This document shows positions 40,021 through 51,434 of a stretch of 64,000 nucleotides of DNA, in pieces. Under the pieces are notes generated by a model, which made no database searches, was not told where the DNA came from, and worked only from the letters and a program-made list of their open reading frames with translations. The stretch covers positions 496,001-560,000 of the forward strand of contig NZ_CP041387.1 in the NCBI RefSeq assembly GCF_007005445.1, written 5' to 3'. The translations under genes and the position numbers were made by a program. Origin of the DNA: Rhodopseudomonas palustris. GTDB taxonomy: Bacteria; Pseudomonadota; Alphaproteobacteria; Rhizobiales; Xanthobacteraceae. How positions within the stretch are numbered: the first letter of the stretch is position 1; every line of letters begins with the position of its first letter.

Positions 40021-40950
40021 TCACAGATCCCGCCGGCTCGCATTGGTGGCTATCGCGGCGGCGGCGGTGCGGTTCTCGACGCCGAGCTTGGCGTAGATCT
40101 GCTCGAGATGCTTGTCGACGGTGCGGGGGCTCAGACCCAAAATCTGCGCGATGTCGCGGTTGGTCTTGCCCTTGCTCAGCCACGCCAGCACCTCGCTCTC
40201 GCGGCTGGTGAGGCCAAATTCGGCTGAGAACTGCGTCGGCGCCTCGGTTGCCGTATCGCGCGCCAGCCGCAGCAGGAATTCGTTGGGGCCGAGCTTGCCC
40301 ATATATTGCAGCCGCAGCTCGTCGTTGCGCAGCATCGATGCCTTGATCGGCATCTTCGGCTGGGCGAGTCCGGTGTGGACCTGCTCCAGCCAGTCGAGCC
40401 AGGGCTTCGGCAGATCCAGCCGCAGACCGTCCTCCGGCGCGCCATCTGCGGCGAGCAGCTTTTGCGCCTGCGGCGTCGCCCACAGCACCTTGCCGAGCCG
40501 GTCGACCGCGAGCAGGAAACGTCCCGAAACATCCAGCGCTGCGCGGGCGCTTTGGCTCACCCGCGCGTTGTTGAGGTGAACTCGGATCCGCGCCAGCATC
40601 TCGACGATCGCGATCGGCTTGGTGACGTAGTCGACGCCGCCGGCTTCGAGGCCGCGGACGATGTGCTCGGACTCCGACAGTCCGGTCATGAAGATCACCG
40701 GCACGTCGGACAATCCCGCGCTGCGCTTCAGCCGCCGGCAGGTTTCGAATCCGTCCATCCCCGGCATTACGGCGTCGAGCAGGATGATGTCCGGCGTGAT
40801 CTGCTCGACGATCCGCATCGCCGCGGCGCCGTCGAGCGCCACCATCACGGTCATGCCGGCGCCGTCGAGGGCGTCGGTCAGCATCCGCAACGTCTCCGGA
40901 GAGTCGTCGACCACCAGGGCGATATCGCGCTTTTTCATGTCATTGTTCAT
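40021..40950 (-). CDS. LuxR-type response regulator
   Basis: A 309-residue regulator. Receiver domain: VVDDSPE at 13-19 and the phospho-acceptor Asp59 in IILLDAVMPGMDG, with Lys in YVTKPI. A middle region (about 145-230) looks PAS-like. The C-terminal LuxR helix-turn-helix is LTSRESEVLAWLSKGKTNRD...SPRTVDKHLEQIYAKLGV. Its start overlaps the end of the kinase gene by 11 bases; an in-frame ATG at 40938 also exists. Cognate partner of that kinase, and probably the regulator of the divergent amide operon. Confidence 0.92.
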   Translation of the reverse strand: MNNDMKKRDIALVVDDSPETLRMLTDALDGAGMTVMVALDGAAAMRIVEQITPDIILLDAVMPGMDGFETCRRLKRSAGLSDVPVIFMTGLSESEHIVRGLEAGGVDYVTKPIAIVEMLARIRVHLNNARVSQSARAALDVSGRFLLAVDRLGKVLWATPQAQKLLAADGAPEDGLRLDLPKPWLDWLEQVHTGLAQPKMPIKASMLRNDELRLQYMGKLGPNEFLLRLARDTATEAPTQFSAEFGLTSRESEVLAWLSKGKTNRDIAQILGLSPRTVDKHLEQIYAKLGVENRTAAAAIATNASRRDL

Positions 40951-43900
40951 GGCGATACAGCGTGTTCAGCGTCTTCATGTAGGAGTCGAGATCGAATTGC
41001 TCGACGAGCGTTCGCATCTGCGACACGAACGCCCAGGTCTCCGGATAATCGGTGTGGATCTGATCGAGCTTCGACTCGATGCCGCGGATGTAGCCGATTT
41101 TGCCGAGCTCCAACAATTCCTCGACGTGCCGCATCGGCGGATGCTGGATCTCGGGCGTCTCATCGGCGGCGGCGGTGGTTTCGCCCTTGTAGATCCATTC
41201 GATCTTGAGGAGCTGGCCGATCAGTTCGAGCAGCCGCGGAATGTCGACCGGCTTCATCAGGTAGGCATCGTGGAACGGCTGGGACAGCAGCGTGCCGTGC
41301 GCCTCCAGCGCGCTCGCCGACAGCATCAGGATCCGCGCGTGGTGATGACCCTGGGAGCGCAGCGTCTCGGCCACCGTCCAGCCGTCCATCCCCGGCATCG
41401 AGATGTCGAGCAGGAACAGATCCGGCTGGCAGTGCTCGGCGAGATCGACGCAGGAATAGCCGTCGGTCGCCACCAGCACGATGAAGCCGAGCGGCGCCAG
41501 CGCATCCTGCAGCAATCCGCGCTGCGCCGGATCGTCGTCGGTGACCAAGATGGTCTTGCGCGGGCCCTGATAGCCGAGCACCGGCGCGCGGATCGAGCGG
41601 GTGCGGGTCGGATTGGTGACCTCGGACAGCAGCAGCTTGACCCGAAAAGTCGAACCCTTGTCCGGCGTCGATGTCACTGTGAGGTCGCCGCCCATCACCC
41701 CGGCCAGCAGCTTGCTGATGGTGAGGCCGAGGCCGGTGCCGCTGTGCGGCTGGGCGGCGCCGAGGGCGCCGCGCTCGAACGGCGCGAAGATTCGCTCCAG
41801 ATCGTCGGGATGGATGCCGGGCCCGGTGTCGCGGACTTCGAGCTCGGCGACCGGGTTGCGGTAGTGCACGATGAACTGCACGCTGCCTTGCTGGGTGAAC
41901 TTGATGGCGTTCGACAACAGGTTGATCAGCACCTGGCGCAGCCGCTTCTCGTCGGCATAGACCATCGGCGGCAGATATTGCGGCCGCTTGAACACGAACT
42001 CGATGTCCTTGGCGGCCGCCTGTAGCCGGAACATGCCGACGAGCTGATCGAGGAATTCGCCGAACCGCACCTCGTCGCGCGACAGGTACAGCCTGCCGGC
42101 CTCGATTTTCGAGATATCCAGCAGGCCGTCGATCAGGCCCGACAGATGATCGGCGCTGCGTCGCATCAGCCGGATCTGGTCGCGCGGCCGCGGCGGCAGG
42201 CTGTTGTCCTGCTCCAGAAGCTGCGCGTAGCCGCTGATGGCGTTGAGCGGCGAGCGCAGCTCGTGGCTGAGGCCGACCACGTAGCGACTCTTGGCGAGGT
42301 TGGCCGACTCCGCCGCCTCCTTGGCGCGCTGCAGCTCGGCGTCGGTCTGGCGGTGGGCGTCGATCTCCTGCATCAGCAGCGTGGTCTGTCGCCGGGTTTC
42401 GGCCTCCGCCGCCTGCCGGCTCAGCCGCGCCAGCACGAACAGCCAGCTCACCACGCCGACGATGATGGTCAGCGCGAAGAACAGCTTCCACAACACCTCG
42501 GCGAGTTCGATCTGCTGGGCTTCGTTGGCGGTCGCCGCCTGCAGATAGATCAGCAGCAACGACAGGCCGATCAGGCCGACCGAGGCTGCGAACACGGTGA
42601 GATAATGTCCGACCTGGGAATTCAGCAGCGCATAGACCCGCTGCGGCAGCACCTTGCCGAGGGTGTCGGTGAACTGCGCGTCGATTCGGGCGTGCGGCTT
42701 GCACAGATCGCTGCAGCGTGCGTCGAGCGAGCAGCACAGCGAGCAGATCGGCCCGGCATAGGCCGGGCAGGAGGCCATGTCTTCCGGTTCGAACGAGTGC
42801 TCGCAGATGCAGCACTTGATCGCCTCGACGTGCTGCCAGGCGCGTTTCGGCTTGCGCGCGATGTAGAACCGGCCGCCGGTCGCGAAGGCGATCACCGGTG
42901 CGGTGAGGAAAGCCACGGTCAGCGCCACGAACGGCGCCAGTGCTTTCACGGTCGGCCCGAACACGCCGTAGAACGCGGTGATCGACAGCACCGTGGCGAT
43001 CGTCATCGAGCCGACCCCGACCGGGTTGATGTCGTACAGATGCGCGCGTTTGAACTCCATGTGGCGAGGCCGCAGTCCGAGCGGCCGGTTGACGACGAGA
43101 TCGGCCACCAGCGCTCCGACCCAGGCGATCGCGACGTTCGAGTACAGCGCCAGGGTGTGCTCCAGCGCCTTGTAGACGCCGATCTCCATCAGCAGCAGCG
43201 CCACCAGCACGTTGAACACCAGCCAGACGACGCGTCCGGGATGGCTGTGCGTCAGCCGTGAGAAGAAGTTCGACCAGGCGATCGAGCCCGCATAGGCGTT
43301 GGTGACGTTGATCTTGATCTGCGACAGGATCACGAACGCGCCGGTCAGCGCCAGCACCAGGCCGGGCTGCTCCAGCACGGTGCGGAACGCTTCGAGATAC
43401 ATGTGCGCCGGCTCAGCCGCTTCGTCCGGCGGCGCGCCGCGGCTGAGGGCGAAGTAGGCGAGGAACGATCCCGCCAGCATCTTGAGCGCGCCGGGGACGA
43501 TCCAGCCGGGGCCGGCGCTGATCATTGCGATCCACCAGGCGCCGCGGGAGGCGCGGCGGTCGCGCGGCAGGAAGCGCAGGAAGTCGACCTGCTCGCCGAT
43601 CTGCGCCACCAGCGCGAACACCACCGAGGCCGCGGTGCCGAACAGCAGCAGATCGAGCTTGCCGTCCGGGCTGCCTTGCTCACCGGCGAACCTCGTCCAG
43701 GCGGTGAAGGACTCCGGGCTCTTCACCGCGATCGCGGCGAACGGCAGGATGTGCAGCAGGATCCAGAACGGTTGGGTCCAGAGCTGGAACCGGCTGATCA
43801 GGGTGATGCCGTAAGTCACCAGGGGGATGATCACCACCGCGCTGAAGAAGTAGCCGAGCGGCAGCGGCAGGCCGAAGCACAGTTCCAGCGCGTTGGCGAG

Positions 43901-50945: not shown

Positions 50946-51089
50946 ACGAATTCACTGCGGTGACCGTTGGCTTAACTGCTGCGTGGTCGCCAAGACTTCC
51001 CTGCGCGACGGGGGGCGGGACGGGGCGTGTTTTCCGCCCCGCTCCCATCGCACAGGTCCGAACCAATCGTCAGCGCAAGGGAAACGACG

Positions 51090-51434
51090 ATGCCTGTCTA
51101 CGAGTATCTATGCGACGCCTGCGGGCCGTTCACCGATCTGCGGCCGATGGCGGAATGCGACGATCCGCAGCTCTGCCCGACCTGCGAGACTTCGTCACCG
51201 CGGGTGATCCTCACCGCGCCAAACTTCTCCTGCATGCCGTCCTCGCAGCGCGCCGCGCACGCCACCAACGAGAAGAGCCGCAACGCGCCGATGACGGTCG
51301 GGGAATACAAGGCCAAGCACGCCCCCGGCTGCAGTTGCTGTTCGGGCATCAAGAAGCCGGCCCGGCTGCAGACCCGCACCAAGAGCGGCGCCAAGGGCTT
51401 CCCGACCGCGCGGCCCTGGATGATCAGCCACTGA
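51090..51434 (+). CDS. fmdB: FmdB family zinc-ribbon protein
   Basis: A 114-residue protein. The N-terminal zinc ribbon has MPVYEYLCDACG and CPTCETSSP; a second Cys set appears near the end (GCSCCSGIKKP). FmdB-type proteins accompany formamidase genes and were proposed as regulators in Methylophilus. The longer frame from 51027 is rejected because the family starts at MPVYEY. Confidence 0.9.
   Translation: MPVYEYLCDACGPFTDLRPMAECDDPQLCPTCETSSPRVILTAPNFSCMPSSQRAAHATNEKSRNAPMTVGEYKAKHAPGCSCCSGIKKPARLQTRTKSGAKGFPTARPWMISH

Follow-up and report, generated by a model that had tools for sequence, protein, structure and literature searches.

The DNA analysed here (the window, 64,000 nucleotides) corresponds to positions 496001-560000 of a contig (NZ_CP041387.1) in the 5.04-Mb genome of Rhodopseudomonas palustris. 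It exhibits a gene for a hybrid histidine kinase whose N-terminal domain is a divergent NCS1-type permease, a gene for a LuxR-type response regulator and, in the opposite direction, an operon for amide uptake and hydrolysis. The permease-built kinase is probably a dedicated amide/urea sensor. The features of the locus, in window coordinates, are as follows.

40021..40950, minus strand: response regulator with a receiver (REC) and a LuxR-type domain (PF00072 and PF00196)
40940..44308, minus strand: hybrid histidine kinase with NCS1 domain, GTG start, 1122 aa (frame; 1122-aa relatives; Pfam HisKA, HATPase_c and Response_reg)
41219..41551, minus strand: receiver domain of the hybrid kinase (PF00072)
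41627..41953, minus strand: HATPase_c catalytic domain (PF02518)
42095..42292, minus strand: HisKA dimerisation and phospho-acceptor domain (PF00512)
42449..42616, minus strand: two additional helices, judged by eye to span the membrane, which connect to the helix ahead of HisKA (model helices 555-581 and 586-645)
42701..42814, minus strand: eight-cysteine segment CxxC-x11-C-x7-CxxCC-x5-C-x3-C, probably zinc-binding
42845..44245, minus strand: divergent NCS1-type permease domain, 12 helices expected
44474..44491, no strand: palindrome ATACG-N8-CGTAT, candidate regulator-binding site, centred about 81 bp ahead of the urtA start codon
44564..45826, plus strand: urtA-type substrate-binding protein of the amide-linked class (TIGR03407, 552.3 bits against a cut-off of 492.75)
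45860..46951, plus strand: urtB permease (TIGR03409)
46967..48118, plus strand: urtC permease (TIGR03408)
48129..48884, plus strand: urtD ATPase (TIGR03411)
48896..49585, plus strand: urtE ATPase (TIGR03410)
49622..50851, plus strand: fmdA formamidase (NF045496, 761.9 bits against a cut-off of 500; PF03069)
51027..51434, plus strand: fmdB-type zinc-ribbon protein (NF053663 and TIGR02605)

An earlier note on this DNA, made from the letters alone, had described most of this layout: a GTG-started kinase of 1122 residues overlapping a LuxR-type regulator gene, with hybrid kinase modules after its permease, and a divergent operon for a five-part urea/amide ABC transporter, formamidase and FmdB. Each of these elements was recovered. 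The end of the kinase gene overlaps the regulator gene by 11 nt. HisKA, HATPase_c and REC domains follow the permease in one chain, and the regulator combines REC with GerE (all matched by Pfam). The urtABCDE genes and the formamidase gene, all above curated NCBIfam cut-offs, share one direction, divergent from the kinase, and fmdB also passes its NCBIfam models; the true start of the latter is probably residue 22 of the frame 51027-51434, because the family match starts there. FmdB-type proteins lie alongside fmdA in many amide-linked loci. A second urtE, 44% identical, is present elsewhere in the genome.

The kinase frame can be read from an ATG at 44539 (1199 aa) or from the GTG at 44308 (1122 aa). 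We regard the GTG as the better start for three reasons. A Rhodopseudomonas palustris protein of 1122 aa, the best match in a search limited to 8000 candidates, is 96% identical over the compared region; the relatives L046, L047 and L051 begin (MAARQRI..., MQSNQKI..., MTATQKI...) at the point of this GTG; and this start leaves the conserved palindrome outside the gene, on its upstream side.

The N-terminal domain aligns with the NCS1 family by profile-profile comparison (hhalign 99.3%, E-value = 2.8e-20) over 397 columns, nearly the whole domain. Control comparisons of the same domain give 3.9% for SSF (E-value = 0.011) and 4.9% for APC2 (E-value = 0.0081); for reference, NCS1 itself reaches 95.5% against SSF and 96.1% against APC2. 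The domain shows the NCS1 version of the LeuT fold, with a fold match to CodB and Mhp1. Direct naming by Pfam or NCBIfam found no supporting match: neither PF02133 nor TIGR00800 matches the kinase domain at E-values up to 10. A search of the PDB by sequence profile gave only a weak CRIPT match (E-value = 0.79) at 483-516, and the SLC5 (SSF) model PF00474 has no match in the genome at an E-value of 0.001. The gap is bridged by a protein of locus L055, 29% identical to the kinase, which matches PF02133 (E-value = 3.6e-9) and TIGR00800 (E-value = 2.5e-16, under the model cut-off). Alignment with NCS1 transporters had been set beforehand as a test of the proposal that residues 20-490 are NCS1-type, and profile comparison, intermediate and fold support it: the domain is a divergent branch of NCS1. 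We term it NCS1-derived, not a canonical member, because it lacks the full pair of aromatics that sandwich the substrate in CodB.

The bridging protein is the best stand-alone relative found. In L055:9149-14184 this NCS1 permease, which is not fused to a kinase, has as neighbours genes for a CN_hydrolase, for a binding protein like AmiC and for AmiR/ANTAR, and is likely an amide permease. Other candidates were set aside: L029 is a Na/alanine symporter, and the weak matches in G175, G194 (both), G199 and G193:C40 (the latter being L055) were not counted as kinases.

Relatives were collected from 200 genomes drawn from the phylum, where every kinase counted is at least 54% identical across the sensor part, and from named genomes, which supplied the best 80 of at least 575 confirmed loci found via the patterns GS[IL]AWSNF and EQ[VA]D[FY]LRF. 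The neighbourhood set holds 106 loci (L084 duplicates L058 and was left out; L058, L088 and L140, with less than 0.5 kb upstream, are unclassed). The set for the tree and residue counts also has 106 members but is not identical to it: it comprises 105 loci and the window, L088 having been removed by a filter. Pattern-selected loci make up 79 of 106 in the former and 78 of 106 in the latter. Because Bradyrhizobium is over-represented, counts are also given collapsed by identity.

Between the permease and the kinase modules lies the Cys-rich segment that the earlier note had pointed out. It is real: its eight cysteines are invariant in all 106 aligned kinases. The segment is modelled with a pLDDT of 87.6 but a pTM of 0.56, and its matches to RING, FYVE and ZZ-type zinc fingers are all weak; it is probably zinc-binding. 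Such invariance could also mean that the permease is a bystander or modulator, and that the actual signal (zinc, redox state or an intracellular metabolite) is read by the eight-cysteine domain or in the cytosol. A model of this kind exists for CbrA, whose SLC5 domain was dispensable for kinase activity (PMC7096432). We consider a bystander permease unlikely. Intracellular sensing by CbrA is proposed to rest on its PAS domain, whereas a Pfam scan finds no PAS or other input domain between permease and HisKA in the NCS1 kinase (the STAC model was possibly outside the scanned set). The permease core keeps invariant polar residues within the membrane. In locus L054, moreover, the permease-Cys sensor sits on a REC-less kinase, beside a separate REC-HisKA-HATPase protein, an OmpR-type regulator gene, fmdA and fmdB; pairing of the sensor module and fmdA with a different kinase fits a functional receptor. 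L050 resembles L054 by its frame lengths (894-aa frame) and by its position beside fmdA/fmdB.

Residues of the putative pocket were compared through one MAFFT alignment with CodB and other NCS1 proteins; numbers are those of the alignment (add 10 for the 1122-aa protein), and Mhp1 residues are in part from PMC9379551. In CodB, Thr278 and Thr279 are sodium ligands and Trp108 and Phe204 sandwich the cytosine (PMC9379551). These correspond to K322, I323, F119 and L223 in the kinase. Both sodium-ligand threonines are thus replaced, and the lysine at the Na2 position is invariant: E47, T116, E123, K322, I323, N324 and N327 are identical in 106/106 kinases of both classes, amide-linked and urea-linked. 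At position 119, 95 of the 106 have Phe and 11 have Leu; at position 223, 105 have Leu and one has Met. For the SIAWSN stretch and positions 229, 230 and 232, invariance is partly built in by the selection patterns. The Na2-position lysine suggests a domain that makes no use of sodium, and the pocket appears to be sodium-independent and shaped for a ligand smaller than a nucleobase. With one sandwiching aromatic and both sodium-ligand threonines missing, the domain is less likely to be an ordinary nucleobase symporter than a receptor or a transceptor that works without sodium.

The resemblance to CodB and Mhp1 in fold and profile, these being the best-known members of the fold, would by itself suggest sensing of a nucleobase, hydantoin or allantoin, and three Bradyrhizobium-type loci (L031, L032, L058) carry within the fetched stretch what appears by eye to be a methionine-salvage phosphorylase/isomerase pair. 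Yet the CodB Phe204 aligns with Leu in nearly every kinase, and by eye no gene of nucleobase, hydantoin or allantoin catabolism recurs across the neighbourhoods, part of which were family-scanned. We hold sensing of such compounds to be very improbable.

A further possibility, a sub-case of amide/urea sensing and not exclusive with it, is that the domain is a true transceptor, an active proton-coupled importer of amide or urea that also signals. In its favour, the stand-alone relative in L055 is a whole permease surrounded by genes typical of an amide operon, CbrA combines transport with signalling (PMC7096432), and a lysine in the Na2 site accompanies proton coupling in CbrA, MjApcT, HutT and GkApcT (PMC13022988). 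On the other hand, L055 has Arg, not Lys, at position 322; an adjoining ABC importer is already encoded at 74 of the 76 amide loci with full flanks (urtA found); and Ks-Amt5 offers a transporter fold that binds without translocating (PMC5764959). Transport along with signalling is a possibility that we rate somewhat doubtful.

The neighbourhood of the kinase is strongly conserved. Neighbouring genes were mostly identified by eye. The kinase occurs at 28 places in 26 of the 200 genomes. The surroundings of all 28 were inspected, for 27 of them in fetched stretches and for one in the window: 21 places lie beside amide genes, six beside urea/urease genes and one (G111) at a contig end. Conservation in relatives had been set beforehand as a test of the proposal, and all 25 loci of this draw with at least 7.5 kb upstream adjoin amide or urea genes. 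The 106 loci divide into 84 amide, 19 urea and three with too little upstream sequence; with at least 7.5 kb upstream, 94 of 94 adjoin amide (76) or urea (18) genes, and 45 such loci (37 amide, 8 urea) are left after removing rows more than 75% identical. Among the 76 amide loci, urtA is found in 74 and urtA together with fmdA in 73 (the exceptions being L050, L054 and L092); an amiE-type amidase is also present in 31. Of the 18 urea loci, 15 carry a urea-type urtA and 13 carry urease genes, and in L051, L052 and L135 the urease operon runs directly into the kinase on the same strand. The LuxR-type regulator is matched in 101 of the 106 loci. Conversely, FmdA above cut-off occurs at 25 places in 22 of the 200 genomes, with the kinase within 10 kb at 21; of the other four, two are in G111 at contig ends and two are without the kinase (G196:C15 and G114). 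In L037, L045 and L048 an alpha/beta hydrolase lies between urtE and fmdA (PF00561 in L048:16303-17373; L037 and L045 by clustering).

In 18 of 94 loci, urease genes, a urea-type transporter or both take the place of the amide genes, which makes urea and short amides (formamide, for example) the candidate ligands. The earlier note had named amides, ureides and hydantoin-like compounds. The amide part stands, whereas the neighbours, mostly judged by eye, give no pointer to hydantoin or to ureides including allantoin.

Alignment of the intergenic regions between kinase and urtA revealed a palindrome. Of 99 such regions, six of 1 kb or more were dropped. TACG-N8-CGTA is present in 68 of the remaining 93, against a mean of 0.30 in shuffled sequences (Markov resamplings, 20 per pattern), that is in 58 of 82 amide regions (window included) and 10 of 11 urea regions. 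Other half-site spacings from 4 to 15 are found in 0 to 2 regions each. With relatives collapsed at 65% identity, the palindrome is retained in 16 of 27. It is absent from all 20 upstream regions (about 1 kb) of urtA genes away from the kinase, 19 of them from kinase-free genomes and one from the urease-linked urt cluster of the genome under study. The longer form ATACG-N8-CGTAT occurs at three places in the genome including the window copy; we take the other two as chance, because they lie inside long frames of other genes. A scan of 44300-44600 for a sigma-70 promoter found none. From its co-occurrence with the kinase loci, we infer that the LuxR-type regulator binds this palindrome. A second, imperfect half-site-like stretch lies just upstream (44448-44473) and is similar in close relatives.

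A tree of the 106 kinases and L055 (quick method, midpoint root on the long L055 branch) requires six changes of the amide/urea label, at least five of them forced by well-supported branches, against a mean of 17.7 for shuffled labels. The repeated changes indicate that the sensor was kept while the operon was exchanged.

Taken together, we consider it probable that the kinase carries an NCS1-derived receptor for amides of the formamide/urea type, which switches on the divergent uptake and hydrolysis operon; the ligand, the phosphotransfer and the DNA binding are the predicted parts of this scheme. A small amide (formamide in this genome, urea in urease-linked loci) would bind in the pocket at the centre of the NCS1 domain. 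The movement set off by binding would be relayed to the kinase by the eight-cysteine linker, which is probably zinc-bound, and by the two extra helices, and phosphate would reach the LuxR-type regulator via the REC domain or directly. The regulator would then bind TACG-N8-CGTA about 80 bp upstream of urtA and turn on uptake and hydrolysis. A broader proposal, which we put forward tentatively and at somewhat less than even chances, is that of a widespread, undescribed family of NCS1-derived receptors, sodium-free, with one conserved pocket reading the carboxamide/urea group. Five or more transfers between formamide and urea operons would in most cases have left the regulator and the TACG-N8-CGTA operator with the receptor, and the whole would be a two-component system by which bacteria detect urea and short amides.

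Several observations weigh against the scheme of an amide/urea receptor that controls the operon. The 20 control upstreams belong mostly or all to urea-type urtA genes, not to kinase-free amide-type ones. The exact palindrome is missing in 25 of the 93 regions (one mismatch in 16 and two in 9, counts that have no chance control), and it is found nowhere in L050, L051, L052, L053, L054, L135 and L055, so that some urease-linked and REC-less systems are without it. The link with urea is facultative: UrtA above cut-off is found in 62 of the 200 genomes and the kinase in 26. The genome under study itself has a urease and urea-type UrtA cluster near 3.01 Mb without a kinase, hence its kinase belongs to the amide cluster alone. 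Finally, no residue cleanly splits the amide-linked kinases from those linked to urea genes. The largest distance of any column is 0.84, and near the TM6 break only column 220 (0.71) is among the 22 columns listed; specificity is thus not readable from the sequence.

This last point would also suit a kinase that senses nitrogen status or ammonia instead of the substrate. Ammonia is the common product of formamidase and urease, which again counts for such sensing. We nevertheless judge it improbable: in the text consulted, the named ligands of NCS1 proteins are heterocycles or, for MetT, a biguanide (PMC13390362), nothing suggests ammonium binding, and by eye no general nitrogen-control gene recurs among the gene clusters of 31 loci.

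Apart from this system, the window exhibits two overlapping frames (57007-57981 and 57605-58636, plus strand) that by eye are two halves of one FAD-linked oxidase, which suggests a frameshift near 57.6 kb.

If an amide/urea receptor is indeed built on the NCS1 domain, NCS1 would join SLC5 and Amt among the transporter families that serve histidine kinases as an input module. The lack of a PAS domain would make the disputed question of whether a fused permease senses cleanly testable, and the repeated swap of amide and urea operons around an unchanged pocket gives a sharp prediction on what the pocket reads. The use of urea and formamide by bacteria of soil and sea thereby gains a regulator, an operator and ligands to consider, and the system might serve as a ready-made sensor for either compound.

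Parts of it are already known. The urt-fmdA clusters of Bradyrhizobium japonicum (blr0968-blr0973) and Pseudomonas veronii Yu15 have been proposed as amide importers (PMC3098086, PMC13209695), and that of Ectopseudomonas guguanensis G3 was noted with a hybrid kinase and a LuxR regulator (PMC13296017); the available parts of these three accounts mention neither the kinase's permease domain nor the urease-linked class nor the palindrome. Automatic names at JGI already join a histidine kinase with a purine-cytosine permease-like protein. PMC8399564 has among its references a PhD thesis (Leeds, 2010) whose title names both the NCS1 family and sensor kinases, possibly as separate subjects. A full-text literature search, which covers few subscription papers, gave among the matches listed no publication recognisable as dealing with an NCS1-fused histidine kinase. 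The parts are thus partly known, while the sensor class, the urease-linked class and the operator were not found described in that search.

The closest known systems are the SLC5/STAC kinases CbrA, CrbS and RpuS, in which a histidine kinase likewise carries a complete LeuT-fold transporter. Two of them, CrbS and RpuS, are of the hybrid type and have LuxR-type regulators as partners, as here, and CrbR has an imperfect palindrome at its target promoters, comparable to TACG-N8-CGTA (PMC5715377, PMC9100948, PMC13022988). CbrA shares the lysine in the Na2 site (PMC13022988). In contrast to these kinases, the transporter part described here is NCS1-type and not SLC5, as the SSF control indicates, an eight-cysteine segment and two helices appear to stand in the place of STAC and PAS, and the genes adjoin amide or urea operons. 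Ks-Amt5 is a similar case of a permease recruited as a sensor of a nitrogen compound by fusion to a histidine kinase, differing in its Amt fold, its ammonium ligand and its origin in an anammox bacterium (PMC5764959). Within NCS1, MetT indicates that the family can accept an acyclic nitrogen compound (PMC13390362). Unlike CodB, Mhp1 and MetT, the permease domain of the present kinases is fused to a kinase and lies below Pfam detection, and relative to CodB it has exchanged Thr278/Thr279 for Lys/Ile and Phe204 for Leu.

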